Assembly (NCBI GenBank): GCA_902805635.1
Contig: CADCTC010000115.1
Coordinates: 15,372-55,324, forward strand
Length of the DNA: 39,953 nucleotides
Reading direction: 5' to 3'
DNA from: an uncultured Chloroflexota bacterium
GTDB taxonomy: Bacteria > Chloroflexota > UBA11872 > UBA12225
The notes under the pieces were generated by a model. The model was given only the letters and a program-made list of their open reading frames with translations. It ran no database searches and was not told the origin of the DNA. A program made the translations under genes and the position numbers. Positions 18,924-39,154 of the stretch are shown here, piece by piece. How positions within the stretch are numbered: position 1 is the first letter of the stretch; each line of letters begins with the position of its first letter.

Positions 18924-20411
18924 ATGACAACACAGCGCGCTGGCGACACAGCACACGCGGGGCAGTCGAACATCCTCGTCATCATGAGCGACGAGCATGG
19001 CCCCATGTTCTCCTCTACCTACGGCCACCCAATCGTGCGCTCCCCGCACATGGACGCGCTGGCGGCGGCGGGCGTGCTCTTCGAGAACGCCTACTGCAAC
19101 TCGCCGCTGTGCGTCCCCTCGCGCGCCAGTTTCGCCTCGGGCAAGCACGTCCACCGTGTGGGCGCCTACGACAACGGCGCCCCCTTCCCTTCGGAGACGG
19201 TGACCTTCGCCCATCTCCTGCGCGCCGCCGGGTACGAGGTGGTGCTGGATGGCAAGATGCACCTCGTCGGACCGGACTCGCTGCACGGCTTCAACGCCCA
19301 GCTCACCCGCGACGCGCACGGAGGAGGGCGTGTCTCCGGCAAGGAGTGGTCAGATCCCCATCCGCGCGGCGCCGATTCGGTGCGCCGCCGTATCGAGGAA
19401 GCTGGCCCTGGTCGCGCCAGTCACCTGGACTTCGACGACGAGGTGGAGGCGGCTGCGCTGGACTGGCTGCACCGCCCTGAGCGCAAGGGCGGGCCCTGGT
19501 GCCTGGTGGCGGGCTTCCTTGCCCCCCACTTCCCGCTCATCGTGCCCGAGCCGTACTTCTCTATGTACTACCCGGACAACCTGGACATGCCCGCCTATGC
19601 GCCGGAGCACGTCCAGCGCCAGCACCCCGCCCACCACCGCGTGCGCGACACCTTCCGCCTGGAAGACATCTCGGAGGAGCGCGTGCGCGCCTGTCGCGCC
19701 GCCTACTACGGCCTAGTCACGTACATGGACGACAAGATCGGCCGCCTGGTGGCCGCGCTGCGGGAGACAGGCCAGCTGGAGAACACGGTCGTCATCTACA
19801 CGGCCGACCACGGCGAGTTCGCCGGCGACCACGGCCTGTGGTGGAAGAACAGCTTCTACGAGCAGGCGTCTCGCGTCCCTCTGATCATCTCCTATCCCGC
19901 CCGTTTCGCCACCGGCCAGCGCGTGGCCGGCGCCGCCTCCTTGCTGGACCTGGCCCCCACACTGATTGACCTGGCCGGCGCCGAGAACCCCGGCGACCTG
20001 GACGGCGACACCCTCCTGCCCGTCCTTGACGCCGTCGGCACGCCCGCAGCCGCGGATGCGGAGGCGCGCTGGAAGGACGAAGCCATTGTCGAGTACTACG
20101 GCCACGCCACCGACCGGCCGCAGCGCATGATCCGCTCCGGCCGCTGGAAGTACAGCTACTACTATCAGGAGCCCGCCGAGCTCTACGACCTGGCCACCGA
20201 TCCGCAGGAGTTCCACAACCTGGCCGGCACGCCCGAGGTGGCCGCCGTCCAGTCTTCCCTCCACCGGCGAATCCTTGCCGGCTGGGACCCCGACGAGATT
20301 AACCGCCAGGTCCGCACCAGCCAGCGCGCCCGCGCCCGCATCGGCCGCGCGACTGGCGCCGTCCTCGCCCACCTCCGCGAGCCCGAGCCCCAAGGCATGC
20401 CCGCGCACTGA
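18924..20411 (+). CDS. Sulfatase (choline-sulfatase-like, Cys-type)
   Basis: This 495-residue alkaline-phosphatase-superfamily sulfatase hydrolyses a sulfate ester. The metal-binding N-terminus is NILVIMSDEHG. The modification motif is Cys63-Val-Pro-Ser-Arg67, where Cys becomes formylglycine, and YTADHGEFAGDHGLWWKNSFYE near residue 290 carries further metal ligands. DLATDPQEFHNLAG near 415 is the usual C-terminal sulfatase signature. No signal peptide is present, so it is predicted to be cytoplasmic. Start ATG 18924; SD sequence weak. The C-terminal 50 residues are an Arg-rich tail. The substrate is undetermined. It lies 113 bases upstream of the sigma-factor fusion gene. Confidence 0.92.
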   Translation: MTTQRAGDTAHAGQSNILVIMSDEHGPMFSSTYGHPIVRSPHMDALAAAGVLFENAYCNSPLCVPSRASFASGKHVHRVGAYDNGAPFPSETVTFAHLLRAAGYEVVLDGKMHLVGPDSLHGFNAQLTRDAHGGGRVSGKEWSDPHPRGADSVRRRIEEAGPGRASHLDFDDEVEAAALDWLHRPERKGGPWCLVAGFLAPHFPLIVPEPYFSMYYPDNLDMPAYAPEHVQRQHPAHHRVRDTFRLEDISEERVRACRAAYYGLVTYMDDKIGRLVAALRETGQLENTVVIYTADHGEFAGDHGLWWKNSFYEQASRVPLIISYPARFATGQRVAGAASLLDLAPTLIDLAGAENPGDLDGDTLLPVLDAVGTPAAADAEARWKDEAIVEYYGHATDRPQRMIRSGRWKYSYYYQEPAELYDLATDPQEFHNLAGTPEVAAVQSSLHRRILAGWDPDEINRQVRTSQRARARIGRATGAVLAHLREPEPQGMPAH

Positions 20412-20524
20412 GGAGCCAGAACCCGATCCTCTGCCTCCGAAGGAGCACACGGACACAAAGGATTGGCGGCCTGATTGGCTCTATTACTGTGAGGGTTGGT
20501 GAACACCCTCGTAGTGAAGGAGCC

Positions 20525-22387
20525 ATGAGACAGGCGCGACAGCAGGCAGACGAGCCGGCGGCTGGGAGCGCAGTGGTGCGTTCGCTGGTAGTCCGGGCGC
20601 AGGCGGGAGACCTGGCGGCGTACGAGTCGCTGGTGGTCCGGTTCCAGGACGCGGCGGCGGCCTACGCCTACGCCCGCCTGGGCGACTTCCACCTGGCCGA
20701 AGACGCGGCCCAGGAGGCATTCGTGCAGGCGTTCCGTGACCTGCCGGCACTGCGCGAGCCGGACGCGTTCGCCGCCTGGCTCAGGCAGATCGTCTTTAGT
20801 CGCTGCGCGCGGATCACGCGCAAGAAACGCCTGCACCTGGTGCCGCTGGAACAGGCGGCGTCACTCCCGGCGTTGTCGGACCCGGCTGAGCTCGCGGACT
20901 CAGCCGAGTCTGTCACGTCGGCGCTGCGCCGGCTGCCGGCAGCGGAACGCGCGCCCACCGCGCTTTTCTACGTGGGCGGCTATTCGCATGCGGAGATCGC
21001 GGCCTTTCTCGGGCTCCCTGTAAGCACGGTGAACAACCGTTTGCACGCCGCGCGGACGCGGCTGAAGAGGAGTATGGACTCGATGATCGGAAACCATCTG
21101 CGGGGCGTCCAGCCGTCGAAGGACGGACGGTTCGTCGGACAAGTCCTGCATCTACTGGCGCCCACCACGCAGGAGCACGGTACGAAGATCTATGATGCAC
21201 TGGAGGCGAAGACCGCGGGGTGGGCCGGTACCCAGTGGCGCGAGGGGCGGCTGGCGCACAGCCATTTCGACTGGGAGGCGTCTCGGGTCGGGATGGTGGG
21301 AGACCGCCTGGCGAGCGTCTTTGGGGTGTACGACGTGACCATGCGGATCGGCGCCGCCAGGGTCCGAGTCGCCGGAATAAACCTGGAGTTCTTCGACCGT
21401 GAGCGTGCCGGTGAACCCGCCGGAGAGGACGCGTTCGCACAGACCGCGGCAGCGTCAATCGACGCGTTTGGCAGACACGGGTACGACCTCTCGATCGCAT
21501 TTGGGAACGAGGCGCTGTTCCACCAACTGGGCTACGCGTTCGGCTGGCGGGAGTTGCTCTGGTTCGTGCGCGCTCGGGACCTGCCGGCTGAGGGACCACA
21601 GGCGGCACTGCACGAGTTTGAGCCGGTGCACCGCGACGATTTGGCTGCCCTCTATAACCGTGAGCACGAGACGCTCACGGGGACTGCGGTGCGTCCCACC
21701 TACCTACGCAACAAGGAACCGGGCGGCTTCCGCGGGTACCTCTGGTCTGACGGTGCGCGGACGCCGGCGGGATACGTCAGCGTGGGACCGGATGTCGTGC
21801 GGGGCTGGCGGAACGCGGCGCTGGTTGGGCGCAATCACAAGGGCTACGAGACATTGCTTTGGCACGACGAGTCGGCTGGTGACCCGGCAGAGCGGCTGCG
21901 AGTGCTCGGGATGCTGGCACGGCAGACGGGGGCGGCGGAAGTAGTGTTCAGCCGTCTCCATCACTGGAGTCCGTTGGGCAAGCACCTCCGGACGATGCCT
22001 TGCCGCATCGAGGAGGGCTACCGAACGTACGTGGTGAAGATCGTCGACCTCACGCGGTTATTCAGCAACCTGGCGCCTGAGCTTGAGCGGCGGTTGGAGC
22101 CATCACACCTTGCGCACTGGACCGGGGACCTGCTGGTGGCCAGCAGACAGCAGGCGGTGCTGCTGTCCATCGAGCACGGCCAGGTGCGCGTGAATCCGGC
22201 AACTCGCGATGCACAGGCAGAGCACGCCATCCTGGGCGGACCAGAGCTCGCTCAACTGATCGTAGGGACCGAGTCGGCGCGTGAGGTAATCGAAGCGGCA
22301 GGTATCACGCTGCGCGGCGATGCCGCCATGCTGGCCGATGTCCTCTTTCCGGCGCAGCGCCCGCAGATGGAGAACCAGGCGCTCTAG
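20525..22387 (+). CDS. ECF sigma factor fused to Eis-like GNAT and SCP2-like domains
   Basis: This 620-residue multidomain protein has sigma region 2 at about 18-100 (AYESLVVRFQDAAAAYAYA, AEDAAQEAFVQAFRDLP) and sigma region 4 at about 130-185 (AERAPTALFYVGGYSHAEIAAFLG, then VSTVNNRLHAARTRLKRSM). A GNAT/Eis-like domain lies at about 235-350 (HGYDLSIAFGNEALFHQLGYAFGW), a second acetyltransferase-like half at about 360-480, and an Eis-type SCP2-like domain at about 510-610. The acetyl-CoA loop that should read Q/RxxGxG/A is degenerate (DRERAGEPAGED). The domain may therefore bind a ligand rather than acetylate; this is inference. Start ATG 20525 follows AAGGAG; a GTG 36 bases upstream is possible. 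No anti-sigma gene is adjacent. Confidence 0.85.
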   Translation: MRQARQQADEPAAGSAVVRSLVVRAQAGDLAAYESLVVRFQDAAAAYAYARLGDFHLAEDAAQEAFVQAFRDLPALREPDAFAAWLRQIVFSRCARITRKKRLHLVPLEQAASLPALSDPAELADSAESVTSALRRLPAAERAPTALFYVGGYSHAEIAAFLGLPVSTVNNRLHAARTRLKRSMDSMIGNHLRGVQPSKDGRFVGQVLHLLAPTTQEHGTKIYDALEAKTAGWAGTQWREGRLAHSHFDWEASRVGMVGDRLASVFGVYDVTMRIGAARVRVAGINLEFFDRERAGEPAGEDAFAQTAAASIDAFGRHGYDLSIAFGNEALFHQLGYAFGWRELLWFVRARDLPAEGPQAALHEFEPVHRDDLAALYNREHETLTGTAVRPTYLRNKEPGGFRGYLWSDGARTPAGYVSVGPDVVRGWRNAALVGRNHKGYETLLWHDESAGDPAERLRVLGMLARQTGAAEVVFSRLHHWSPLGKHLRTMPCRIEEGYRTYVVKIVDLTRLFSNLAPELERRLEPSHLAHWTGDLLVASRQQAVLLSIEHGQVRVNPATRDAQAEHAILGGPELAQLIVGTESAREVIEAAGITLRGDAAMLADVLFPAQRPQMENQAL

Positions 22388-22487
22388 GAGCCCGCGTTCC
22401 GCACAAACCCTACTCTGCTCCGTTAGTACAGCGTAGATCATCTCTCTGTCCGGCCACCACCTGCCCCCGACCCGCGACGATCCGCGA

Positions 22488-22518
22488 TCACACAGAGTCA
22501 CACCCGCTCACGATCACA
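22488..22518 (+). promoter_or_regulatory. TCAC direct repeats on a 10-bp period upstream of a sulfatase
   Basis: TCACA at 22488 and 22498 and TCACG at 22508 lie exactly 10 bases apart, followed by an off-phase TCACA at 22514. They sit in the 295-base non-coding gap between the sigma-fusion gene and the second sulfatase, about 170 bases before its start. The same TCACA word on the same period recurs at 31968-31993, also reading toward the downstream gene. Nothing else is recognised in the gap 22388-22682 apart from the ribosome site at 22673-22677. Confidence 0.45.
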
Positions 22519-22682
22519 CACCCTCTTCTCTAGCGCCCTGTGACTCCGGTGACCTTTCGGCCGTATCTCCGGCCTCCGCCCGCCATTAGCCGTCTCCATC
22601 GGCCATCGACTGGCAGTGCATGGGCAGCAGGGGTAAGGTTCTCCCTCCCCAACCTGCTACAACCCGCGCCACGGAGGGATAC

Positions 22683-24380
22683 GTGCCAGCGCTACCGGAC
22701 CGACCGCTCAACATCCTCGTCCTGATGGGCGACCAGCACCGCTGGGACGCGCTCGGCTGCGCCGCAGATGGCCTAGAGCCCTGGCAGCGCACCTGGCTCA
22801 TGGACGGCCCTGGTGGACGCCCGCTGGTGCGCACGCCCCACCTGGACCACCTCGCCGCCACCGGCGTCCGCTTCACCCAAGCCGTGGCCAACCTGCCGGT
22901 GTGCGTCCCCTGTCGCCACTCCTTCATCACCGGCATGTACCCCCACCAGGTGGGCATCCTCACCAACGCCCACTACTGGCCCGACCAGCCCCCCGTCCCC
23001 ACCCTCGGTCACCGCCTCAAGGAGGCCGGCTACGCCACCGCCGCCGTCGGCAAGATGCACTGGAAGAACCGCAACGCTCCCGACGAGCACGTGCCCGACA
23101 AGCGCGGCTTCGACTTCCGCGCCGGCCGCGGCGGCAACACCGACGGCCCGGTGGACGTGGCGCTCTCCGGCCAGGTGCAGACGCTGGCGCAGCGTGCCCA
23201 GTCCGACACCGTCTCGCGCTTTGGCGTTGGCGGCGAGAGCCGCGAGGGCTACGTAGGCGACGTCGCGCCCCAACCCGCATCTGAGCTCCCCGAGACCTGG
23301 CTCGTCAACCAGGCTGTCGACTACCTCCGCCGCCATGACCAGCACCAGTACGCGCAGCAGCAGGCGCAGCAGGCGCCGGACGCCTCACGCGGCGCACATG
23401 GCTCACGCACTGGGGAGCAGCCGTTCTGCCTGCTGGTCAGCCTGGACCGTCCCCATCCACCGAATGTCATCCCCTCAGACTACGAGGGCATGTACCGTCC
23501 GGAGGACGTGCCGCTGCCTCCTGCGGTGCCGGATGGCTTCCGCGAAGACGATCCCCACGTCCGCCGCTCCATCGAGCAGCGCGGCTGGGGCCAGATGGAC
23601 GAGCGCGAGCTGCGCCTCTCGATCTCGCGCTATCTCACCAACGTCACTTACGTCGACGACTGCTTGGGCAAGGTGCTCATCACCCTGGACGAGCTCGGTT
23701 ACGCGGACAATACCCTCGTCGTCCTGCTCTCCGATCATGGCGAGCTGCTCGGCGAGCGCCGCGTCGCCGGCCACGGTGGCGGCCACACCAAGTACAGCCT
23801 CTACGACAGCGCGGTACGCGTTCCCTTCCTGGTGCGCTGGCCGGGCGTCTCACGCCCTGGCCTCGTCTCTCACGCCGCCGTCGAGCTGATCGACCTGATG
23901 CCCACCTGGCTCGACGCCGCCGGCCTGGAAGCGCCGCCCATCCTGCCGGGCCGCAGCCTGCGCCCGCTGCTGGAAGGCACCTCCCCGGAGCGGGCCATCT
24001 GGCGCACCGCTACGCTCTCCGAGCAGTACACTGGCGCCGTGGAGCATCCTGGCGCCGCGGACGGTGTGGCCGTGCCCCGCCGTGCTGCGGCGCGTGGCCA
24101 GTGGACGCTGCGTGAGTCACGCTACAAGCTGATCCACCGCGCCGGCGCCCGCTCGGCGCTCTACGACCTCCAGCACGACCCGAACGAGCTGAACAATCTC
24201 ATCGACGACCCTGACTACGTCGAGGTCCGCGCCCGCCTTTACGCCCTCTTCGCCCAGGGCGTGATCGAGCGCGCCGAGCAGTTCCCCGCCCACTGGGAGC
24301 CTGTCGTCGCCATCGCCCGCCCCACCAACACTCCGCCCACCGGCCCGCTCGGGGCCACCCCCACCACGGCTGCCCAATAA
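22683..24380 (+). CDS. Sulfatase with CVPCR modification motif
   Basis: This 565-residue sulfatase starts at GTG 22683, which has GGAGG at 22673-22677 with 5 bases of spacing; an ATG 63 bases upstream lacks a ribosome site. LNILVLMGDQHRWDALG forms the metal-binding N-terminus. The modified Cys is Cys74 in Cys-Val-Pro-Cys-Arg, a permitted variant of CxPxR with Cys instead of Ser at position 4. VVLLSDHGELLGE near residue 345 and LYDLQHDPNELNNLIDD near 495 complete the fold. Residues about 218-243 are a low-complexity insert rich in Gln and Ala (QYAQQQAQQAPDASRG). There is no signal peptide, so it is probably cytoplasmic. The amidohydrolase gene follows after 5 bases, so the two are likely co-transcribed. 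Confidence 0.92.
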   Translation: MPALPDRPLNILVLMGDQHRWDALGCAADGLEPWQRTWLMDGPGGRPLVRTPHLDHLAATGVRFTQAVANLPVCVPCRHSFITGMYPHQVGILTNAHYWPDQPPVPTLGHRLKEAGYATAAVGKMHWKNRNAPDEHVPDKRGFDFRAGRGGNTDGPVDVALSGQVQTLAQRAQSDTVSRFGVGGESREGYVGDVAPQPASELPETWLVNQAVDYLRRHDQHQYAQQQAQQAPDASRGAHGSRTGEQPFCLLVSLDRPHPPNVIPSDYEGMYRPEDVPLPPAVPDGFREDDPHVRRSIEQRGWGQMDERELRLSISRYLTNVTYVDDCLGKVLITLDELGYADNTLVVLLSDHGELLGERRVAGHGGGHTKYSLYDSAVRVPFLVRWPGVSRPGLVSHAAVELIDLMPTWLDAAGLEAPPILPGRSLRPLLEGTSPERAIWRTATLSEQYTGAVEHPGAADGVAVPRRAAARGQWTLRESRYKLIHRAGARSALYDLQHDPNELNNLIDDPDYVEVRARLYALFAQGVIERAEQFPAHWEPVVAIARPTNTPPTGPLGATPTTAAQ

Positions 24381-24385
24381 ACATC

Positions 24386-25240
24386 ATGAACGATCCATTC
24401 ATCTTCGACTCCCACGTTCACATCTGGTCCACCGACCGGCAGCGCTACCCGATGGTTGCCGGCCGCGAGCGTCCTGTGGAGCACGACGGCAGCGCCGAGG
24501 CGCTGCTGCGCGAGATGGACGCCGCCGGCGTCGGCACCGCTCTGCTCGTCCAGACCCCCTGGCTCGGCGAGGACAACCGCTACTTCGTGGACGCTATGCG
24601 ACAGTACCCTGGCCGGTTCGTCTCGCTCGGCTGGCTGGAGGACCCGGTTGCACCCGACGCCCGTGAGCGCGCCCAGCGCCAGTACGACGAGGATGGCTTC
24701 CGCGGCGTGCGCCTGCACCTGACCGATGCGCGCGTGGACGAAGGCGTGCGTGCCGGCGCCGCCCACCCGCTGTTCCGGTGGGCGCAGGACCTCGGCGTCC
24801 CGGTGCAGTTCCTCAATCGCGTCCCAACCCACCCGACTATCCTGGGCGTGGCGCAGCGCTTCCCGGACCTCACGATCATCGTGGACCATCTGGGCCACCC
24901 GATGATCGAAGAGGCGCCTGCGTTCGCCTCATCCGAGCCGTTCTTCGAGCTGGCGCAGTACCCCCACGTCTACGTCAAGGTGTCCAACCACGTCATCTCG
25001 TCCAAGCAGCCGTATCCCTGGGCCGACCTGCACGCGTACCAGCAGCGCATGTTCGACGCCTTCGGACCCCGCCGCTTGATGTGGGGGTCCAACTGGCCGA
25101 TGCAGGTGCCTGAGGTGTCCTACCAGAGTCGCCTGGACGCGGTGCGCCGCGACCTTCCCGCCATTGGGGCATTGAGCAAGGATGACCAGGCCTGGGTGCT
25201 CGGTGGCACCGCGCGCTCGCTGTGGCCCGCGGAGGGGTGA
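24386..25240 (+). CDS. Amidohydrolase family 2 (lactonase-like) TIM-barrel enzyme
   Basis: The 284-residue protein is of the amidohydrolase-2/COG3618 type, whose members include sugar lactonases and 2-pyrone-4,6-dicarboxylate hydrolase. The metal-site pair is His10 and His12 (FDSHVHIW). Later landmarks are RLHLTDARVDEG, TIIVDHLGHPMIE near 170 and MWGSNWPMQ near 230, where the usual catalytic Asp of GSDWP is Asn. That Asn variant occurs in part of the family but raises a question about the mechanism. It lies 5 bases behind the sulfatase and 107 before the Thr-type sulfatase-fold gene, which suggests a role in opening a lactone made during sugar oxidation. No signal peptide. Confidence 0.9.
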   Translation: MNDPFIFDSHVHIWSTDRQRYPMVAGRERPVEHDGSAEALLREMDAAGVGTALLVQTPWLGEDNRYFVDAMRQYPGRFVSLGWLEDPVAPDARERAQRQYDEDGFRGVRLHLTDARVDEGVRAGAAHPLFRWAQDLGVPVQFLNRVPTHPTILGVAQRFPDLTIIVDHLGHPMIEEAPAFASSEPFFELAQYPHVYVKVSNHVISSKQPYPWADLHAYQQRMFDAFGPRRLMWGSNWPMQVPEVSYQSRLDAVRRDLPAIGALSKDDQAWVLGGTARSLWPAEG

Positions 25241-25272
25241 CGTGACGCGTTTCCCTCGCCGATAGTCCCAGG

Positions 25273-25312
25273 CCCTTCTCTGATGGGAGCGGGCGCCGAA
25301 GGCCGGGTGAGG
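25273..25312. repeat. Hairpin repeat, family B copy 2 (degenerate)
   Basis: CCCTTCTC, TGAT and GGGAGCGGG followed by CGCCGAAGGCCGGGTGAGG match the layout at 15096-15138, with several substitutions in the stem. It occupies the gap between the amidohydrolase and the next enzyme gene. Confidence 0.6.
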
Positions 25313-25347
25313 CTTGCGCACAGATGGGGATGGGGTATCGTGGGGCC

Positions 25348-26787
25348 ATGCAAGTCATCCTCGTTTCAAGCGACACCCTGCGGGCGGACCATCTAGGCTG
25401 CCACGGCTACTTCCGGCCCACCAGCCCGCGCATCGACCGCTTCGCCGCGGAGGGCGTGGACTTTGTGGACCACGTCAGCCAGGCGCCGTACACGCTGCCC
25501 TCTTTCACCAACCTGATCACGGGCCAGTTCGGCACCACCCACAAGGTGCTCGCCAACCCCTCTGGGCAGAACCAGAACTTCCCCGTGGGTGTAGATGACT
25601 ACACGCCCATGCTGGCCGACCTCTTCCGCGCCTCCGGCCCGACCATCGAGATGGCGCACGGCCGGTACGTCTCGGGCGGCACGCTGACCGCCTCCTTCGA
25701 CAACCTGGTCAACTTCCCCAACCATCCCCGCTGGTTCGTGCGCGGGTACGAGTTCCACGTCAACGTCACGCCCGGCAACCAGCGCATGGTCGGCGCCGAA
25801 GTGCTGCACCGACGCCTCTTCCCGTGGCTGGAGCAGCATGCCCGCGAGGACTTCTTCCTCTTTATCCATTACTGGGACGTACACGGCCCCTACCTCGCGC
25901 CGGCGCCCCACGGCGAGCAGTACCCCCACCAGAAGGTAGGCGACAGCATTCCTGTCTATAGCGCTCCCGGCGGGCAGGACTACATCCGCGGTTGGGGACC
26001 GGTGAGCGAGGTCACCCCCGAGGCACGCGCCAAGATCGACGCCTACGACGGCGGCATCAATTACTTTGATCACGTCTTCGGCCAGCTGCTCGACCACCTG
26101 GACGCGCTGGGGATTGGGAAGCAGGCGGTGGTTGCCCTCACGGCGGATCACGGCGAGAGCATGGCGGAGCACCGCGTGCCGTTCGCCCACGACGAGCTCT
26201 ACCAGGCCACCATCAACACGCCGCTGATCATCCGCGCCCCAGCCGGCTCCGGCCCCGGCGGTGGGCTGCCCGCAGGCCGCACCGTCACCGCACTTTCCCA
26301 GGCGGTCGATATCGCGCCGACCATGCTCGATCTGGCTGGCCTTACCGAAGCCGCCGCCAGCCCGCACTTCCAGGGGAAGAGCCTGGTGTCGCTGGCGCGG
26401 GGGGAGGTGGAACAGCTGCACGAGCGCAGCTATTCAGAGTGGACGCGCTACCTCGCCTCGCGCTGCATTCGCACGCCACGCCACAAGCTGATCTACAAAT
26501 TCACGGGCGGCTTAGCGCTGGCCCGCCGCACGCCGCGGCGCGTGGCCTGGCACGAGCTCTACGACCTCCAGGCGGATCCCGACGAGACGCGCGACCTGGC
26601 GGCCGAGCAGCCCAACCTGGTGCGCCAGCTGGACGCCGAGCTCCAGGAGTGGGTGCGCTCCCAGCTGCAGCCGGGCGAGGAAGACCCCCTGCTGCGCCCG
26701 GAGATGGCCTGCTGGGAGCCTGGGCCACGTGCCGGCACCGGCGGCGCGCTCGCCCTCCTGCCGCCCGAGCGCAACCCCTGGATCTGA
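25348..26787 (+). CDS. Sulfatase-fold hydrolase with Thr in place of the catalytic Cys
   Basis: This 479-residue member of the alkaline phosphatase superfamily starts at ATG 25348 (MQVILVSSDTLRADHLG); in-frame ATGs 18 and 24 bases upstream add only a short tail. The fold is clear: Asp9 in SSDTLRADH, LTADHGESMAEHRVPF near 265, and LYDLQADPDETRDLA near 415. At the nucleophile site the CxPSR motif is replaced by Thr49-Leu-Pro-Ser-Phe53, so formylglycine cannot form. Thr nucleophiles occur in nucleotide pyrophosphatase/phosphodiesterases and lipoteichoic-acid-type phosphotransferases, so a phosphate ester or phosphodiester is a likelier substrate than sulfate. That is inference. No signal peptide. 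It converges with the following lipoprotein gene (3 bases between stops). Confidence 0.9.
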   Translation: MQVILVSSDTLRADHLGCHGYFRPTSPRIDRFAAEGVDFVDHVSQAPYTLPSFTNLITGQFGTTHKVLANPSGQNQNFPVGVDDYTPMLADLFRASGPTIEMAHGRYVSGGTLTASFDNLVNFPNHPRWFVRGYEFHVNVTPGNQRMVGAEVLHRRLFPWLEQHAREDFFLFIHYWDVHGPYLAPAPHGEQYPHQKVGDSIPVYSAPGGQDYIRGWGPVSEVTPEARAKIDAYDGGINYFDHVFGQLLDHLDALGIGKQAVVALTADHGESMAEHRVPFAHDELYQATINTPLIIRAPAGSGPGGGLPAGRTVTALSQAVDIAPTMLDLAGLTEAAASPHFQGKSLVSLARGEVEQLHERSYSEWTRYLASRCIRTPRHKLIYKFTGGLALARRTPRRVAWHELYDLQADPDETRDLAAEQPNLVRQLDAELQEWVRSQLQPGEEDPLLRPEMACWEPGPRAGTGGALALLPPERNPWI

Positions 26788-28406: not shown

Positions 28407-29104
28407 GCGGCAATCGGGGCGCCGCCGCGCAGTCGTGCCACGGCGCTGGCCTCGTCCGCCCGCATCGCGTCGTCTGCGTCGTCGATCTCGGGGGCGTGCT
28501 CCACCCGCCGCGGTCGCAGCCGGGTGGGCGCGGTGTCGAGCCGCTCTTCCCAGATTGCACGCTCGCTCTCCTCCTGTTGCTGCAGCCAGCGCAGGAATGC
28601 CGGGCTCACGACGTTCTTCTGTCCTGATTCACGTCCCATGGCCCAGCCGGCGATTGCGCCGTACAGCACGTGGCCCAGCAGCATGCCGGGGATCGTCAGC
28701 GGCCCGTAGGAGAACGACCCCGGCTCCTGCAGCCCTGCCTGCCGCGGCCGGGGATGGAGCGACGGCAACGCCGCCAGCACACCCAGCGCTGCGCCCGCGT
28801 GCGCCAGCCCCAGCAGCGCTCCGCCCTGCGCCCCTGGCCACATCCCCAGTTTTCGGAAGAGCAGCTGGTACCCCAGCGCGAAGAGAGTCCCGTTGGCCGC
28901 GTGCAGCCCCCACCCCACGGCCCGGGTGCGGCCGCTGTCCGGCGCCAGCAGCGTCCCCAGCAGCCGGCCAAAGTCCAGCCGGAACAGTCCCAGCGTTTTT
29001 GAGACGAGCGTTAGACCCGTCATGGTTCCGGTTGCCACCACACCACCAGTCAGCACGCGCACCAGCTCCGCACCGCGTCTCGTCATGGCCGCACTATCCT
29101 CCAT
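28403..29104 (-). CDS. Small integral membrane protein of unknown function
   Basis: The 233-residue protein has several hydrophobic segments: about 17-37 (VLTGGVVATGTMTGLTLVS), about 62-82 (VGWGLHAANGTLFALGYQLLF), about 92-112 (GALLGLAHAGAALGVLAALP) and about 135-152 (IPGMLLGHVLYGAIAGWAMG). A charged cytoplasmic tail follows (about 155-233, rich in Glu, Arg and Asp). His residues in membrane segments 2-4 recur at similar spots (GLHAANG, LAHAGA, LGHVLYG), as in several uncharacterised bacterial membrane families. I do not recognise a named family. GGAGG lies just inside the frame, so initiation at the second ATG (29086) is as likely as at 29104. The gene is divergent from the VOC gene. Confidence 0.7.
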   Translation of the reverse strand: MEDSAAMTRRGAELVRVLTGGVVATGTMTGLTLVSKTLGLFRLDFGRLLGTLLAPDSGRTRAVGWGLHAANGTLFALGYQLLFRKLGMWPGAQGGALLGLAHAGAALGVLAALPSLHPRPRQAGLQEPGSFSYGPLTIPGMLLGHVLYGAIAGWAMGRESGQKNVVSPAFLRWLQQQEESERAIWEERLDTAPTRLRPRRVEHAPEIDDADDAMRADEASAVARLRGGAPIAA

Positions 29105-29175
29105 TGTCTGCCCCGTACGTTAAAGCAGACCGCATGCCACCCTGAGTCGATTCATCTCCAGGAGACAACAGAACC

Positions 29176-29604
29176 ATGGAACCTCGCATCAGTTTCGTCA
29201 CGCTCGGCGTGCGGGACTTCGAGCGCGCCCGCCGCTTCTACCGTGATGGCCTAGGCTGGCCGCTCTCCAGCGGCAGCAACGACGAAGTAGCCTTCTTCCG
29301 CACCGGTGGCGCCATCCTCGCCCTCTGGTCGCGTGAGCTGCTGGCTGCGGACGCCAACGTCTCGTCGGAGGGATCAGGCTTTCCTGGGTTTGCCCTGGCG
29401 CACAACGTCCCCAATAAAGAGGACGTCGACGCGGTGCTCGCCCGGGCGGCCGCGGCCGGCGCCACCATCCTCAAGCCTGGTAGTGATGCCGTTTGGGGCG
29501 GCTATACTGGCTACTTCGCCGATCCAGACGGATTCCCGTGGGAGGTGGCGTGGAACCCTCACTTCCCCCTCGGTCCAGACGGTGCCGTCCAGCTGCCTGG
29601 ATAG
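29176..29604 (+). CDS. VOC-superfamily (glyoxalase-like) protein
   Basis: This 142-residue vicinal-oxygen-chelate fold protein comprises two beta-alpha-beta-beta-beta modules. Signatures are FVTLGVRDFERARRFYRDGLGWP at the N-terminus and GYTGYFADPDGFPWEVAWNP near 110, where the second-module Glu is a usual metal ligand. The expected N-terminal His ligand is replaced (SFVTLGV), so metal binding may be altered. Such proteins serve as glyoxalases, dioxygenases or drug-binding proteins; the function is not predictable here. AGGAG precedes the ATG by about 12 bases. Confidence 0.88.
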   Translation: MEPRISFVTLGVRDFERARRFYRDGLGWPLSSGSNDEVAFFRTGGAILALWSRELLAADANVSSEGSGFPGFALAHNVPNKEDVDAVLARAAAAGATILKPGSDAVWGGYTGYFADPDGFPWEVAWNPHFPLGPDGAVQLPG

Positions 29605-29662
29605 CCTGCCGGGTCGAGGCGCTGGAAGGCCGCTGGCACGTTGCTTGCCGGTCCTGCGGCCG

Positions 29663-31015
29663 ATGGACGGTTCTGGAAGTGCCCCGCCGCGGCGGCCGGC
29701 GCTCTTCCCGAGCTTCTTCATGGGCGGGTTCGAGTGCTCCACCCACATTGACCGCTCACGGCGTCGCCAGGACTTCGTGCACCTTACCCAGCACGACCGC
29801 TTCTTTCGCGAGGACTACGAGCGCGCGCGCTCGGTTGGACTGCGTGTGGTGCGTGAGGGGCTGCGCTGGCACCTCATCGAGCGAGGCGGTCTTCCCGGCG
29901 CCCACGGCCCGTACGGCAGCAACGGCGCCGGGCGGCGCTACGACTTCAGCTCGATTGCCCCCATGGTGGACGCCGCCGAGGAGCTGGGCATCACGGTCAT
30001 CAACTGCCTGCACCACTACGGCCTGCCTGACGGCGCCGATCCGCTGCACCCCGACTTTCCGAAGCAGTTCGCCGACTACGCCGCGGCGTTCGCCGGCTGG
30101 CGCATACAGCGCGTCTCTCGCGACCGCTGGTACGGCGCCGTCAACGAGACTTCGCTGTTCGCCTTCGCGGCGGGCGAGGCAGCCTGGTTCTATCCCTTCT
30201 ACAGTGGCTCTGGCCAGGAAGTGAAGGTGGCCATGGTCAAGGCCGCCCTGGCCGCGACCGATGCCATCCGCACCACCGACCCGCAGGCGCGTTTCGTGAC
30301 CATCGATCCCATAATCCACCTGGTGGCGCCTCGCGGCTGCCCCCACTTGGCGGAGCGGGCAGAGCGGGAGAACCGCTCGCAGTGGGACGCCTGGGACATG
30401 TCTATGGGCACCCAGCTGCCCGAGCTCGGCGGCGGGCCGCGGTACGTGGACGTGATCGGCATCAACTGCTACCCGGACGGCCAGAAGGAACAGGACACCA
30501 ACAACGTGCTCTCTCTCGACGACCCGCGCCGGCGCCCGTTCCGCGACGTCCTTCGGGAGTGCTACGACCGCTACCGGCGCCCAATCATCATCGCCGAGAG
30601 CTCAGCGCGCGGAGACGACCGGCCGCAGTGGCTGCGGTACGTGGTGGACGAGTGCCTGGCGGCGCTGGCGCAGGGGGTGGACCTGCAGGGCATCTGCCTA
30701 TTCCCTTTGGTGGACATGCGTGAGTGGCAGCGCGGCCAGAACGGTCCCTGGGGTCACCTGGGGCTGTGGGACGTGAAGGAGGATGCGATTGCCCTCCATC
30801 GCATGCCCAATGAGCCGTACCTCCGCGCGCTTGCCGAGGTCCAGCAGCGCGCCGCCGCGTCGGGCCTGCTGCCAGTGCTGCCCTCGGGCGAACCGGCGAT
30901 CACGGTAAGAGAAGCAGATGCTGAAGTGCCGGATGCCCTTGCGGCAAGCCCAGCGGCTGAGGCAACCGACGGCGCAGCACGCCGAGGCGCGGGCAGCACC
31001 CTTGCGGGCCGCTAG
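29663..31015 (+). CDS. GH1-like clan-A glycosidase
   Basis: This 450-residue TIM-barrel protein is distantly related to family 1 beta-glucosidases. FMGGFECSTHIDRSRRR opens the barrel, INCLHHYGLPDG follows near residue 115, AVNETSLFAFAAGE near 160 carries the acid/base Glu, and PIIIAESSARGDDRPQW near 310 carries the nucleophile Glu. I chose ATG 29663; the frame is open upstream but overlaps the VOC gene with non-conserved sequence. An ATG at 29720 (MGGFECS) is an alternative. The last 60 residues are a low-complexity Ala-rich tail. No signal peptide. It overlaps the convergent SDR gene by 4 bases (CTAG shared by both stops). Confidence 0.82.
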   Translation: MDGSGSAPPRRPALFPSFFMGGFECSTHIDRSRRRQDFVHLTQHDRFFREDYERARSVGLRVVREGLRWHLIERGGLPGAHGPYGSNGAGRRYDFSSIAPMVDAAEELGITVINCLHHYGLPDGADPLHPDFPKQFADYAAAFAGWRIQRVSRDRWYGAVNETSLFAFAAGEAAWFYPFYSGSGQEVKVAMVKAALAATDAIRTTDPQARFVTIDPIIHLVAPRGCPHLAERAERENRSQWDAWDMSMGTQLPELGGGPRYVDVIGINCYPDGQKEQDTNNVLSLDDPRRRPFRDVLRECYDRYRRPIIIAESSARGDDRPQWLRYVVDECLAALAQGVDLQGICLFPLVDMREWQRGQNGPWGHLGLWDVKEDAIALHRMPNEPYLRALAEVQQRAAASGLLPVLPSGEPAITVREADAEVPDALAASPAAEATDGAARRGAGSTLAGR

Positions 31016-33681: not shown

Positions 33682-34944
33682 CTACTCCCCCAGTCCTAGC
33701 GCCAGCGCCTCCGCCAATCCCGCCCCCAGCTGCCGCTGGTCCGCTAGCGTCCCATACGCGCCGCCGCGCGTGGGCAGCGGCCCTGTACGCATCTCCAGCA
33801 GCGCGCTTGGGAACTGGAACGGCTTGCGCGAGCGCATCAACGGCGTCAGCGCGTCCTCCCGCTCGGGCGCGCCGGGCACGCCGGGCGCGCCCGTGCGCTC
33901 CTCCCATGGCGATGGGCGTGTTGTCCCGCTGAAGTGGCTGCGCTGCGCCAGGAGCGCAGCCAGGCGCGCGATCAGCGCCTCGTATCGGGCTCCCACTGCC
34001 TGTGCTGCTTCCCGCGACTTGCCAAAGGAGAGGTTGGTCGCCTGGAGGTAGTCGACCGTCTGCTGGTTGTTGTTGTGCACGTCCAGGAAGAAGAGTGGTT
34101 GTCCGCCTTCCCCGGCACGGATCGCCTCGCGGATGCACGCGACCTCGGGCGTGGGCTTTACCAGACACCACTCCCGGTTTGGATCCTTGCCCCGTGTGTT
34201 GTGGCGCGTGTGGCCGTGGAAACAGCCATCAACGTTCACCATCGGCACGAGCTGCCAGGTGTACTCTGCTCGCAACGCTTCGTCCGCCAGCAGCCGCTCG
34301 ACGAACCCTTCCGCGGCGTACGAGGAGTACGTCTCCCACGGGTGCTGCCGGAACACCACCCACGCCGACCCGTGCGACTGCTCCCCTCGTACCGTCAGCA
34401 GGTCGATCTCCCGCCCTTCGGGAGAGTGTCCGAGCACGCGGTGACTCAGGATGCCACTGGGCGCATTCTGCCGCTGTGTCACCCGCTGCACAAACCGCCG
34501 ATGGTCGGCGTAGGTATATGGCTCGATGTACGCCAGCGTCGCCGTATTCCGCTCGCCCTCTGGCACCATGAACCGCGTGCGCAGCAACGAGCGCTGGGTA
34601 CGGTCATCCGATGCCGGCGTCCACTCGATCTCGTCCCGCCTCAGCCGCAGCCACGCCCGCCCTTCCGGCGCGAGGCTGCCCGGTCCCGGCGCCAGCACCG
34701 GCAGCGTATCCGGTCCCCAGGCATTAGCGGGGCGCAGGTTGTACTCCGCCTCGAGCGCCACAAAGTCCAGCGTTACCTGCCGCCCGCCCATCCCGTCCAG
34801 CTGGCACGCAAACCAGATGGCCGAGCGGTTCCGGCCCGCCTCGTCGCCGTCGCCGGAGATGGCAAGCTCCCAGTGGTCCGGTGCCACCTCCCGCGCGCCG
34901 TCGAGCTTTCCTCCTTCAAAGTCCCAGCTGATGTTTCCGGTCAT
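33682..34944 (-). CDS. M14 zinc carboxypeptidase, cytosolic (CCP-like) subfamily
   Basis: This 420-residue peptidase has the beta-sandwich N-terminal domain of cytosolic carboxypeptidases (about 1-145) followed by an M14 catalytic domain. Zinc ligands are His201 and Glu204 (RQHPWETYSS) and His290 (FFLDVHNNN). Substrate-carboxylate residues Asn256-Arg257 lie in GKDPNREW, and the catalytic base is Glu384 in ALLEMRTG. VNVDGCFHGHTR matches the CCP motif NPDGV.NGH. No signal peptide. The start overlaps the sulfatase stop (34941-34944), so it is coupled to it. CCP-type enzymes trim C-terminal residues or deacylate amides; inside a sulfatase/LacI operon it may remove an amide or amino-acyl group from the carbohydrate substrate, which is inference. 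Confidence 0.9.
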   Translation of the reverse strand: MTGNISWDFEGGKLDGAREVAPDHWELAISGDGDEAGRNRSAIWFACQLDGMGGRQVTLDFVALEAEYNLRPANAWGPDTLPVLAPGPGSLAPEGRAWLRLRRDEIEWTPASDDRTQRSLLRTRFMVPEGERNTATLAYIEPYTYADHRRFVQRVTQRQNAPSGILSHRVLGHSPEGREIDLLTVRGEQSHGSAWVVFRQHPWETYSSYAAEGFVERLLADEALRAEYTWQLVPMVNVDGCFHGHTRHNTRGKDPNREWCLVKPTPEVACIREAIRAGEGGQPLFFLDVHNNNQQTVDYLQATNLSFGKSREAAQAVGARYEALIARLAALLAQRSHFSGTTRPSPWEERTGAPGVPGAPEREDALTPLMRSRKPFQFPSALLEMRTGPLPTRGGAYGTLADQRQLGAGLAEALALGLGE

Positions 34945-36470
34945 CTGGCCGCCGCACTCGCCGCACTCGCTGCACCCACCGTATCCGCTGCGGCCGGCGC
35001 CGGGCGCAGGCCCCGATACTCGCCGCGCGGCAGGTAGGGCTGCGACTGCGTGTTCTCGTTGATGCGCGCCAGCAGCTTCTGGAGCATCCGCAGCAGCACG
35101 TCGCGGTGGGTGGGGTCATCGGCCAGGTTGCGCGTCTCGTGCGGGTCGGCTTGCAGGTCGAACAGCGCGGGCGGACTGGCTGGGATGTTCACCGGCCGGT
35201 CCAGGTAGGCGTTCCCCAGCTTGCGCTTGTCGAAGCTCGGCTCGCCCCACGCCAGCTTGTAGCGCCCGTCGCGCAGCATCTTGTCGCAGCCGAGCTCGGC
35301 GTAGACGGTCTCGCGGTGGGTCTGCGTGTCGCCGTGCAGCAGCGGCGCCAGGCTCTTGCCCTGATCCAGCGCGTCTGGCGCCACGCCCGCCAGGTCGCAC
35401 AGCGTCTTGCCCAGGTCCAGCGTCTCCGCCAGCGCATCGCTGTGCTGTCCGGCGCGTACGCCCGGGCCAGCGAAGACCATCGGCACCCGCACGCTCGCCT
35501 CGTAGAACTTCACCTTGCTGAACGCTGACTGGTCCCCCGCCATCTCGCCGTGGTCCGCGCTGAACGCGATGACCGTGTTCTCGCCTACCCCGTCCCCCAG
35601 CTCGGCCAGCTGCTGCCGGATGCGCCCCACGTATTCGTCGACGTGGGTGATCATGGCGCGGTAGCCCCGGCGCGCCTCGGGCAGCCACTCCGGCGGCTGC
35701 GTGTTGTTCCAGGGCGGCGTCTCCTCCTGGTCGCGGTAGAGGTCCATCAGGCGCGGCAGCGGCGCCGTGGGCGAGTGCGGCGCCACGAAGCCGACGTGCA
35801 GCAAGAACGGCGTCCCAGTGCCTCGTTGGGGGGAGTCCTGCCGGCGGCGCAGCCACTCCAGCGTCGTATCGCTCACGAACGAGGTCAGCGCGTACCGCTC
35901 CGGCAGCGGCCACTCGTGGCACTTGAAGTTGGGATCGCCCTTGCGGCCGCCGGGTCCGTAGGCCCAGCGCTCCTCGAACCGCAGGAAGTCGTCCAGCACC
36001 CCCTCGCGGCGCAGGAACGCGGCGTAGTTGCAATGGACTCCTTGCGCCACCATGTCGTCCGCCTCGATGCACTCGCTCCAGCCCAGCGAGTCCATGTAGC
36101 GCAAGTGCTCGGGGGACGTGAACTCCGCGTCGTAGGCGTGGATATCCATGTGCGTCTTCCCGATGGCGCACGTGTCATAGCCCGCCTCCCGGAACTGCTG
36201 CACGAACGACGGTGTGCCCGGCGGCAGCCGGTGCAAGTTGGTGAAGCACCCGCTGTTCATGCCGTAGCGACCGGAGGCGATCGCCGCGCGCGACGGGCAG
36301 CACACCGGCGCCGTGCAGTGCGCCCCGCCGATCGCCGTCCCACTGGCCGCCAGCGCGTCCAGGTGGGGCGTGTGCGTTACGCCGTTGGCATAGCCGGCGT
36401 CTTGGGCATAGCCCATGAAGTCCCAGCGGTGCTGGTCGGTCAGGATCAGCACCACGTTTGGCCGGCTCAT
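34941..36470 (-). CDS. Sulfatase (Cys-type), first gene of the LacI-linked operon
   Basis: This 509-residue sulfatase has metal-binding PNVVLILTDQHRWDFMG and modification motif Cys57-Cys-Pro-Ser-Arg61, where Cys57 becomes formylglycine. AFSADHGEMAGDQSAFSK near 300 and LFDLQADPHETRNLADD near 460 complete the family pattern. No signal peptide. The start ATG 36470 is preceded by AGGAG at 36484-36480 with 9 bases of spacing and by a perfect TATAAT at 36496-36491. The predicted transcript starts almost at the ribosome site, giving a very short leader. The C-terminus ends in an Ala-rich low-complexity tail. It heads the operon with the M14 peptidase and the LacI repressor. Confidence 0.93.
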   Translation of the reverse strand: MSRPNVVLILTDQHRWDFMGYAQDAGYANGVTHTPHLDALAASGTAIGGAHCTAPVCCPSRAAIASGRYGMNSGCFTNLHRLPPGTPSFVQQFREAGYDTCAIGKTHMDIHAYDAEFTSPEHLRYMDSLGWSECIEADDMVAQGVHCNYAAFLRREGVLDDFLRFEERWAYGPGGRKGDPNFKCHEWPLPERYALTSFVSDTTLEWLRRRQDSPQRGTGTPFLLHVGFVAPHSPTAPLPRLMDLYRDQEETPPWNNTQPPEWLPEARRGYRAMITHVDEYVGRIRQQLAELGDGVGENTVIAFSADHGEMAGDQSAFSKVKFYEASVRVPMVFAGPGVRAGQHSDALAETLDLGKTLCDLAGVAPDALDQGKSLAPLLHGDTQTHRETVYAELGCDKMLRDGRYKLAWGEPSFDKRKLGNAYLDRPVNIPASPPALFDLQADPHETRNLADDPTHRDVLLRMLQKLLARINENTQSQPYLPRGEYRGLRPAPAAADTVGAASAASAAAR

Positions 36471-36553: not shown

Positions 36554-37957
36554 ATGGAGCGAGCAGAGGTTGTTTTGGACGGACTTCAGCACAGGACCAC
36601 ACTAGACGAAGGTGTGGCAGCAGTGAAACGCCAGACGCGCCGCAGCCAGCTTTCGCTGCTGGCGGGGTCTGCTGCCCTGGCCGGTGCGTTCTCCGCTGCC
36701 TGCGCTGTGGGCGGCGGCTCCGGCAGCGTCCCCGCCGGCAGCGCTGGCAGCAAGGCTAAGGCGCCCATGACGCTGCGCGTCCAGACCCGCACCGGCGTTG
36801 ACCTGGACAAGTACTGGCTCCAGCGCAAAACGGACTTCGAGGCCACCCTCCCCCACGTGACGCTGGAGGTGGAAGCGATCGCCGGCGGCCCGCTGGAGTA
36901 CGTCACGAAGCTGCTCGTCTTGCAGTCTGGCGGTGGCATTGGCGACGCCGCCTGGGGCACCACGCGTGCCGGCTACATCAAGTTCCTCGCCTCCAAGGGT
37001 GTCTTCCGGCCCGTCGAGCCGCTGGCCAAGACCGACAAGCTCAACCTGGCCGAGTACTACCCCCGCGCCCTGGAAGACATCACCCACCAGGGCAAGCTGA
37101 TGGCGCTGCCGCACATCACCGAGCCTGGCCGGGCCGGCCTGATCTGGAACAAGAGCCTGCTGGGCGGCACGTCTGTGAAGGAGCCCGACCTCACCTGGAC
37201 CTACGAGACGCTGCGCGACGCGGCGGTTGCGATCAGCAAGGGTCCCAACGACGCGCGCGAGGTCTACGGCCTCAACGGCTCGTACGGCTACCTGGAGTTC
37301 TTCCCCTTGCTGCGCGCCTTCGGCGGCGAGCTGCTCACGCCGGACGGCACGCGCTGCGTGCTGGACTCGCCGCAGGGCCTGGCTGCGGTGCAGTGGCAGC
37401 ACGACATGATCCGCCGCCACGGCGCCGTCCCGGCGCCCGGCGCTCCTGCCAACTTCAACATGGGCCAGGTCGCCTTCCAGCCCGCGAACCCCATGACGGC
37501 GCAGACCACCGCGGTCACGCTCAAGGGCGCCTTCCAGCTTGGCACGTCGCTGCTGCCCAAGGGCCCCACCGGCAAGCGCGGCACCATCCTGGTCAGCCAC
37601 ACGATGGGCGTCACGACCGACACCAAGAACGTGGACGAAGCCTGGGCGTGGACCAAGTGGTCGTGCAGCAAGGACTTCGCGGTGCACCGCCTACTCTCCG
37701 GCAACGGCGGCCCAGGTGGACGCCCGGACATCTGGAAGAACGAGCAGGTCATCAAGGAGATCCCCGGCTGGCAGAACTGGATCACCCTGATGGACGACGT
37801 GCAGCCCCACTACGTCCCCGTCAACCTGCGTGGCCAGGACGTGGAAGACGCGCTCAACAAGCAGCTCAACGCGATCTGGAAGGGCGACGTCGCCCCGGCG
37901 GATGGCATCAAGCTGGCGGTCGCTGGCGTCAACGAAGTGCTGCGCCAGCCCGCGTAA
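36554..37957 (+). CDS. ABC transporter substrate-binding lipoprotein (family 1 type)
   Basis: This 467-residue solute-binding protein starts at ATG 36554, preceded by AGGAGG with 9 bases of spacing; the frame is open 32 codons further upstream through the operator, which is therefore not coding. The signal has Arg-Arg (RQTRRSQLSLLAGSA), a hydrophobic stretch and lipobox-like FSAAC with Cys50. The mature part is family 1 type (MTLRVQTRTGVDLDKYWLQR, GKLMALPHITEPGRAGLIWN, NVDEAWAWTKWSCS). It is probably the importer component for the substrate sensed by the LacI repressor; no permease follows. A hairpin separates it from the oxidoreductase gene. Confidence 0.93.
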   Translation: MERAEVVLDGLQHRTTLDEGVAAVKRQTRRSQLSLLAGSAALAGAFSAACAVGGGSGSVPAGSAGSKAKAPMTLRVQTRTGVDLDKYWLQRKTDFEATLPHVTLEVEAIAGGPLEYVTKLLVLQSGGGIGDAAWGTTRAGYIKFLASKGVFRPVEPLAKTDKLNLAEYYPRALEDITHQGKLMALPHITEPGRAGLIWNKSLLGGTSVKEPDLTWTYETLRDAAVAISKGPNDAREVYGLNGSYGYLEFFPLLRAFGGELLTPDGTRCVLDSPQGLAAVQWQHDMIRRHGAVPAPGAPANFNMGQVAFQPANPMTAQTTAVTLKGAFQLGTSLLPKGPTGKRGTILVSHTMGVTTDTKNVDEAWAWTKWSCSKDFAVHRLLSGNGGPGGRPDIWKNEQVIKEIPGWQNWITLMDDVQPHYVPVNLRGQDVEDALNKQLNAIWKGDVAPADGIKLAVAGVNEVLRQPA

Positions 37958-37968
37958 GCCTGGGTAGA

Positions 37969-37995
37969 CTCCTCACCGCGACATACGGTGAGGAG
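37969..37995 (+). promoter_or_regulatory. Hairpin masking the ribosome site of the oxidoreductase gene
   Basis: CTCCTCACCG (37969-37978) and CGGTGAGGAG (37986-37995) form a perfect 10-bp stem over a 7-base loop. The 3' arm contains GAGGAG, the Shine-Dalgarno sequence of the gene starting at 38005. It could repress translation of the second gene or stabilise the 3' end of the lipoprotein message; there is no U-run, so it is not an intrinsic terminator. Confidence 0.75.
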
Positions 37996-38004
37996 AGACA
38001 CCCC

Positions 38005-39132
38005 ATGAGGCGGATCGGTATTGGCGTCGTCGGCTGCGGCGGCATCGCGCGCTCCCACGCCGCTGCGCTCAAGCGGCTGGAGCAGGAAGGCGAATGTACT
38101 GTCGTCGGTTGCGCCGACCTGGCCCCAGACAAGGCAAAGGGTCTTGCCGAACAGTTCGAGATCCCCAACTGGTACGCCGACGCCCGGCAGCTCGTCGAGC
38201 ACCCAGAGGTGGAGGCGATCACCGTCTGCACTAACCCGCCCTTCCACGTCCCCGCCACCATGATGGCGACGGCGCTCGGCAAGCACACCATCGTCGAGAA
38301 GCCCATGACGATGGACCTGGCAGAAGCCGACCGCGCCATCGAGGCCACCCGCAAGGCCAACGTGCGCTTTGGCGTCATCTTCATGCGCCGCTTCTGGCCC
38401 GGCGCTCAGCGCGCCCACCGCGCCATCCAGGAAGGCAAGCTCGGCTCCCGCCTGATCCTCGGCGATTGCATCCTCAAGTGGTCGCGCCAACCGGCTTACT
38501 ACAAGGACCCCTGGCGCGGCATGTGGGAAGGTGAGTACGGCGCCGCACTGGTCAACCAGGCCGTGCACGCGCTGGACATGTTCCTGTGGCTCATGGCCCC
38601 CGCCGGCCAGCTGGAGACCGTCTACGGCAAGTGGGCCAACCTCACCCATCCATATATAGAGGCCGAGGACAATGCCGTCGCCGCCTTGCGCTGGTCCAAC
38701 GGCGCGCTCGGCGTCCTCTCGATGTCCATCTCCACGCACCCCCAGCTCGGCGCGCGCATCACCGCTACCGGGGACAACGGCGCCACCGTCTCGGTCACCG
38801 AGCACCCGGAGGGGCGCTTCGGCCTCAACGATATCTGGACCGTCCCCGGCGAGGAAGAAGCCATGCGCCAGCTGTACGAGCAGGAGCAGGCCGAGGCGCA
38901 GGACCACTTCAAGCCGTTCCCCATCGCGCATTACTGGCAGCTGCAGGACTTTGTGCGCGCCGTCCGCGAGGGGCGTGACCCCCTGGTCACCGGCGAAGAG
39001 GGCCGCCGCTCCATCGAGCTGATCGAAGCGATCCGCCTCTCCACCGACACCGGCGCCGAGGTCAAGCTTCCCCTGCGCACGTCCGCGTGGACGCCGCCCC
39101 CGTGGCGGGATGGCGGGCGCCCCAAGAAGTAG
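38005..39132 (+). CDS. Gfo/Idh/MocA family oxidoreductase
   Basis: This is a 375-residue NAD(P)-dependent sugar or inositol dehydrogenase-type protein. The Rossmann motif GVVGCGGIARSHAAAL opens the N-terminus, and Glu98-Lys99-Pro100 in HTIVEKPMTMDL holds the catalytic Lys. The C-terminal alpha/beta domain has NQAVHALDMFLWLMAP near residue 190, with the conserved His and Asp. ATG 38005 was chosen over the longer open frame because AGGAG lies upstream and homology starts here. It would oxidise or epimerise the imported sugar. It is the second gene of the LacI-controlled plus operon, 47 bases behind the lipoprotein gene. Confidence 0.93.
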   Translation: MRRIGIGVVGCGGIARSHAAALKRLEQEGECTVVGCADLAPDKAKGLAEQFEIPNWYADARQLVEHPEVEAITVCTNPPFHVPATMMATALGKHTIVEKPMTMDLAEADRAIEATRKANVRFGVIFMRRFWPGAQRAHRAIQEGKLGSRLILGDCILKWSRQPAYYKDPWRGMWEGEYGAALVNQAVHALDMFLWLMAPAGQLETVYGKWANLTHPYIEAEDNAVAALRWSNGALGVLSMSISTHPQLGARITATGDNGATVSVTEHPEGRFGLNDIWTVPGEEEAMRQLYEQEQAEAQDHFKPFPIAHYWQLQDFVRAVREGRDPLVTGEEGRRSIELIEAIRLSTDTGAEVKLPLRTSAWTPPPWRDGGRPKK

Positions 39133-39154
39133 ACAGCGCCCTGTGCGGTTCGTT

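Follow-up and report, generated by a model that had tools for sequence, protein, structure and literature searches.

We propose that the protein of 620 residues encoded at 20525-22387 (+) of the window, i.e., of the whole analysed stretch of 39,953 nucleotides from an uncultured Chloroflexota bacterium, is a one-component sigma factor, in which a fused Eis-type acetyltransferase/SCP2 module would have lost both CoA binding and catalysis and would act in cis, via a hinge, as the regulator of the sigma part. To this reading we assign a probability of roughly 0.58. Going beyond the sequence-only reading of the same DNA, it is also found that the sigma part and the hinge belong to a lineage with many unrelated tails.

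The gene and its sigma part

The frame starts with ATG and is read through 620 codons to the stop with no internal stop, confirming the single unbroken sigma-to-tail frame described in the sequence-only reading. A GTG at 20489, upstream of the ATG at 20525, would lengthen the protein by 12 residues; since homologues begin near residue 15, the start candidates are the ATG at 20525 or the GTG at 20573/20576. The source assembly is a draft: it consists of 327 contigs and is about 89% complete.

The N-terminal part is of the ECF type, with sigma2 and sigma4 and no sigma3 domain between them. Sigma-70 region 2 (residues 36-102; 20630-20830, +; PF04542, E 3e-9), with the canonical DFHLAEDAAQEAF core-binding helix, and region 4 (residues 129-180; 20909-21064, +; PF08281, E 2e-12) were both named in the earlier reading, and both profiles, Sigma70_r2 and Sigma70_r4_2, exceed the Pfam cut-off. 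The general sigma70 profile TIGR02937 matches with 58.4 bits against a cut-off of 42.9, while among the best 25 of 78 NCBIfam matches no named ECF subgroup (SigM, SigE, SigW and others) reaches its curated cut-off, the top subgroup scores being 87 bits versus 190 for NF007225 and 78 versus 142 for TIGR02983. The sigma part is followed by the hinge (residues 191-210; 21095-21154, +), which reads QPSKDGRF in the window protein and which most of the sigma lineage, with differing tails, has in the form xxPSRDxxF.

The fold of the tail

Behind the hinge, the tail is composed of an N-terminal GNAT domain (residues 238-349; 21236-21571, +), a central, second GNAT-like domain (residues 356-510; 21590-22054, +) and an SCP2-like domain (residues 511-620; 22055-22384, +). 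In the Pfam search with the window protein alone, no GNAT domain is matched, and SCP2_2 (PF13530) is matched at residues 543-615 below threshold (18.2 versus 23.2 bits, E 0.004). Acetyltransf_9 appears in the relatives, with seven of the nine aligned family members matching it (best E 1.8e-5) and the diverged paralogue L143 exceeding the Pfam cut-off (27.5 versus 25). A profile built from nine full-length relatives reaches structures of the Eis type (4my0, E 0.008; Eis 3sxn, E 0.03). The AlphaFold2 (AF2) model calculated from nine sequences is of moderate quality, with a mean pLDDT of 73 and a pTM of 0.58, informing on the domain folds and not on the sigma-tail arrangement, with pLDDT of about 90-95 across most of the SCP2 part. 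Foldseek aligns this model with complete tandem-GNAT/SCP2 structures over about 430 columns in each match, with E 1.4e-16 for 2ozg and ~4e-14 for Mtb Eis, followed by 4my3, 3n7z and 2i00, and with probability 1.00 for 2ozg, 4my3 and Eis, i.e., the tail has the three-domain fold of the type V (Eis-like) GNATs. Because the family profiles, AF2 and Foldseek agree, the description of the tail as a complete Eis-like GNAT plus SCP2 module is correct, the GNAT/SCP2 fold being present after residue 200. No SnoaL domain of the ECF41 kind is matched in the window protein by Pfam, the tail folding as Eis.

The complete three-domain fold is thus held in common with the Eis/type V tandem-GNAT proteins (Mtb Eis, Eis2, 2ozg, 4my0, 3n7z, 2i00 and 2hv2). 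By contrast with these, the window tail has lost the catalytic features and sits behind a sigma factor, with 12-19% identity to the solved structures.

Loss of the catalytic features

In GNAT proteins the CoA pyrophosphate is bound by motif A, R/QxxGxG/A. In the window protein the former motif A (residues 284-312; 21374-21460, +) reads GIN...DRERAGEPAGED, with R/QxxGxG/A lost and a short insertion. The degenerate acetyl-CoA loop remarked on from the window sequence turns out to be general to the whole fused family: the pyrophosphate loop is missing in all ten fused proteins, where the loop region is slightly longer and the Gly of the preceding strand is replaced by Asn (AGIN). Moreover, of all segments motif A is conserved best in four stand-alone groups (0.56-0.84) and least in the fused clade (0.40), where the remaining module is well kept. 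This pattern is as expected for a pseudo-enzyme, short of proof.

Eis uses Tyr126 as its general acid, and water is activated by the C-terminal carboxylate, that of Phe402 (PMC8556138). By alignment, the Tyr126 position is Phe332 (21518-21520, +) in the window protein and is F, W, T or P, never Y, in the nine aligned fused proteins, while it is Y in 27 of the 28 stand-alone relatives with a residue there. The C-terminus of the window protein (22343-22384, +) has the conserved form LFPxQxPQMxNQAL, the fused proteins ending in NQAL or a close variant, in place of the LFP...DxF end (DxF/DxY) of many stand-alone relatives. The stand-alone relatives in Chloroflexota have RGKGYA-like loops, FYHRFGY and often a DHF, DWF or DRY end. 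L143 is less degraded, since its EYARYGY may retain the Tyr, and ends in NQDL. Judged from these motifs, it is very improbable that the tail is an acetyltransferase; even with the motifs lost, CoA or another acyl donor might still bind in an altered manner.

Distribution, selection and ancestry of the fusion

A full-length copy with 67% identity is present in a second genome of the same taxonomic family, and further full-length members with 39-48% identity are found in MAGs labelled Gemmatimonadota, Latescibacterota, Nitrospinota, Pseudomonadota and unassigned bacterium; one member genome holds the second, diverged full-length copy, L143. The architecture survey suggested together with the earlier reading therefore recovers the same fusion in assemblies of several phyla, with at least 10 full-length fused proteins (nine aligned, the window protein included, plus L143), a lower bound because about 85,000 genomes were scanned by short peptide patterns. 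Bin names such as RHO and IRC presumably indicate sponge metagenomes for some members. Within 400 Chloroflexota genomes the fusion occurs in two, both previously found in this analysis, and the module profile is met in 27 others, in Eis-like proteins that are unfused or in an unrelated context. An origin from phage or plasmid was considered and rejected: one scan of IMG/VR with two short patterns gives no relative of the module, and the plasmid matches are partial, covering about the sigma part.

Purifying selection acts on every tail domain, as it does on the sigma part. For the window protein versus L013, dN/dS is 0.19 in the sigma part, 0.17 in the N-terminal GNAT domain, 0.10 in the central domain, the lowest value of the gene in this pair, and 0.28 in the SCP2 part; for L015 versus L073 it is 0.19, 0.18, 0.14 and 0.34, respectively. 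These values come from two moderately diverged pairs and are approximate, most of the comparisons having a synonymous divergence close to 1 or higher; the hinge, with its 20 codons, is too short for such an estimate.

The tail tree separates the fused modules, as a single clade, from 29 stand-alone modules (SH-aLRT 100). The sigma tree draws the GNAT-tailed members as two groups, with a single clade not rejected (AU p 0.34). The GNAT-tailed genes of L017 and L018, 97% identical and with partly shared, rearranged neighbours, are in MAGs labelled Gemmatimonadetes and Latescibacterota, and their hosts are probably related organisms with inconsistent labels. In L073, another sigma factor (4413-5822, +), with a tail of ~270 residues without Pfam match, lies directly upstream of the GNAT-tailed one.

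A sigma lineage with many different tails

Many loci match only residues ~18-210 of the window protein, mostly with 40-54% identity, and do so in long proteins. The tails of 55 such relatives comprise ankyrin repeats (30), the PheS core, tRNA-synt_2d (3), Polbeta nucleotidyltransferase (3), glyoxalase (2) and, once each, RCC1, HEAT, Rho_RNA_bind, DUF1835 and bifunctional nuclease. About ten kinds of tail, the Eis type among them, have been acquired by one sigma lineage. A supported group of 62 rows (97/90) in the sigma tree unites GNAT, ankyrin, Polbeta, PheS, RCC1, one VOC and HEAT tails. On this tree, with many weak inner branches, the tail labels require 23 changes in total where 11 would be the minimum; this points to repeated gain or exchange of tails. 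The hinge in its simple pattern xxPSRDxxF is present in 24 of the 30 ankyrin rows, eight of the nine GNAT rows and some Polbeta, VOC and unassigned rows, as compared with one of ten tail-less sigmas; the PheS rows have a weaker variant.

By lineage score, two sigmas of the window genome lie far above the others (273 and 261 bits, against 111 for the third), namely the window protein and a Polbeta-tailed one on contig C222. The latter (L002/L165, G000 contig C222:4870-5505) has a Polbeta-type nucleotidyltransferase tail with an apparently intact GSx..SDID motif, and two more Polbeta-tailed copies are present in Chloroflexota (L046, L049). The PheS core is fused to the sigma part in L020, L024 and L081, from Armatimonadota and a Planctomycetota MAG, where it is a possible amino-acid or tRNA sensor. 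The Chloroflexota locus L148 (499-2088, -) joins a lineage sigma to an ATP-synthase alpha/beta-like domain, with a V/A-type C-terminal domain and the Walker A motif GPAGAGKL.

From these data we consider it an even bet that the lineage is a phylum-crossing "plug-in" system, in which a constant sigma2-sigma4 pair and PSRDxxF hinge have time and again received unrelated domains, including several repurposed enzymes (Eis-type pseudo-acetyltransferase, PheS core, ATP-synthase-like, Polbeta nucleotidyltransferase, glyoxalase), giving one-component sigmas that would sense intracellular ligands directly.

Some other loci are noted here. The lineage members L029 (654-2357) and L040 (5992-7680) have related tails with CPESxxFPSCLxxCLxxx, that of L029 without Pfam match, which by eye only resemble a C39-like or BtrH-like domain. 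In L003/L167 (G000 contig C48) the sigma carries a tail of ~157 residues without Pfam match that contains HESAH (HExxH-like). At L006/L168 (G000 contig C225:18527-19927) two sigma genes lie in divergent orientation, and the tail of one of them, L006, is a bifunctional nuclease (BFN) domain; L006 is left out of the lineage because it lies outside the 62-row group and has no hinge. The open frame L156 (3-1502, -) runs from a sigma into a part that by eye is like SAICAR synthetase; since the relative L155 is without that part, L156 is probably two genes read as one.

Proposed model of a sigma factor with a built-in regulator

In the model, the N-terminal ~190 residues, an ordinary sigma2/sigma4 pair of the ECF type, would bring RNA polymerase to the promoters of this sigma factor, and the C-terminal 410 residues, the Eis-type tandem GNAT plus SCP2 module without CoA binding and catalysis, would act as the cis regulator. 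The state of the tail would be set by ligand binding, in the former substrate cavity or the central domain, and/or by oligomerisation as in Eis hexamers, and would be relayed through the conserved hinge to sigma2/sigma4, deciding whether RNA polymerase or promoter DNA is engaged. By analogy with the SnoaL-type tail of ECF41, the tail may thus take the place of an anti-sigma factor. The earlier suggestion of a built-in ligand sensor stands insofar as a regulatory domain is the better of the two functions then offered, its ligand sensing and control being the conjectural part.

The precedent invoked for such a sigma factor, the SnoaL-type extension of ECF41, is supported by the literature (PMC3426412, PMC8999054). 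ECF sigmas with N- or C-terminal extensions make up at least 26 groups (PMC8999054), and in ECF41 the fused tail serves as a regulatory domain (PMC3426412; PMC8999054): its partial removal raises the activity 20- to 120-fold, and its whole removal abolishes it (PMC3426412). As in the window protein, a sigma2-sigma4 core with an enzyme-like C-terminal domain and no anti-sigma gene is seen in ECF41 (SigJ, Ecf41Bli) and in the SnoaL-tailed ECF56, ECF205, ECF294 and ECF295. However, while in ECF41 the control by the tail is experimentally shown (PMC3426412, PMC8999054), for the window protein we infer it, together with small-molecule sensing and the direction of the switch. The window tail differs from these groups also in being an Eis-type tandem GNAT plus SCP2 module of ~410 residues instead of a SnoaL domain of 120-150 residues, and its family has the conserved hinge PSRDxxF and not the conserved carboxymuconolactone decarboxylase/oxidoreductase neighbour. 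ECF42 (TPR tail) and ECF57 (WD40-like tail) likewise have a large C-terminal extension proposed to replace the anti-sigma factor (PMC8999054); with their repeat-domain tails they are resembled more by the ankyrin-tailed members of the lineage than by the GNAT-tailed one.

The strongest alternative to our model, itself rather unlikely, is that the module is a scaffold for protein-protein contacts or oligomerisation, where Eis-like hexamers or a partner protein sequester or cluster the sigma parts with no small ligand. Eis, a characterised relative of the tail, is indeed a hexamer (PMC8556138), and the same sigma lineage is dominated by tails that typically bind proteins (ankyrin, RCC1 and HEAT); the many invariant polar residues inside the module (W238, R239, D249, R254, R281, N286, D321, R342, K397, D448, E449, D453 and R477) are, by contrast, more suggestive of a binding pocket.

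That the module is an active acyltransferase with a remodelled site, modifying RNA polymerase, the sigma itself or a metabolite near the promoter, is improbable. It would agree with the complete fold and the strong purifying selection, with the HPxx context that can still be discerned around motif A in several members, and with the Tyr that L143 may keep, but the R/QxxGxG/A loop is lost in ten of ten, the Tyr in nine, the catalytic-type aromatic C-terminus is gone and motif A is the least conserved segment. With these losses spread across the fused clade, the earlier suggestion that the module acetylates the transcription machinery is disfavoured. A shade less probable again is a tail that acts as the effector, with the sigma part a mere autoregulatory element setting its expression. 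In favour of this, ECF sigma factors commonly autoregulate (PMC3426412) and other tails of the lineage look enzyme-like (PheS core, Polbeta with intact GSx..DID motif); against it, the GNAT tail looks catalytically dead and plain autoregulation would make the fusion needless. Finally, a chance or decaying fusion, or an assembly error joining two genes in a draft genome, is hardly credible, the accident being refuted in essence by the independent copies: in all, ten are present in several phyla, with the same junction, a conserved C-terminus and purifying selection throughout.

Returning to the one-component sigma factor, the searched open-access literature gives no described Eis/SCP2-sigma fusion, no ankyrin-sigma lineage and no single sigma lineage with so many unrelated tails; the priority of the Eis/SCP2 tail and of the multi-tail lineage is unproven. 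Sigmas with built-in regulators are already known. If one lineage does keep its core and hinge while exchanging the regulatory domain, domain swapping would be a bacterial route to new transcription switches, and the lineage would offer engineers of sigma switches a natural chassis. The range of tails suggests a simple plug-in design that combines signal sensing and gene switching without a separate inhibitor protein. In the Eis-type member we see a clear candidate for an acetyltransferase that became a regulator, with a testable prediction of ligand sensing.

Genomic context

As in the sequence-only reading, no anti-sigma factor gene is adjacent, and none is present among the window genes tested. 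By BLAST among the loci, neighbours are conserved only between the near-identical L017 and L018, and those that were tested by Pfam in four other loci are unrelated; there is therefore no obvious dedicated anti-sigma factor or substrate enzyme. Scans for promoters, terminators and RNA families give nothing above chance.

Both flanking genes (18924-20411 and 22620-24380) are sulfatases by Pfam, as had been stated, with an amidohydrolase and a third sulfatase downstream and an esterase-like gene upstream; this context is not conserved in other members. A role in a sulfatase operon was rejected, because sulfatases flank the gene in the window only and no neighbour is conserved by BLAST or Pfam.

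Elsewhere in the window, at 28435-31012, 36605-37687 and 37813-39183, there are frames of 236, 569, 361 and 457 residues without Pfam match at E 1e-5, some of which may not be genes. Finally, we note that four sulfatases and an amidohydrolase, with a solute-binding protein and a LacI regulator nearby, lie at 18924-26787 and 34944-36470, and GH2 and apiosidase-like genes lie farther from the sulfatases, so that the region as a whole looks like one for the use of sulfated glycans.
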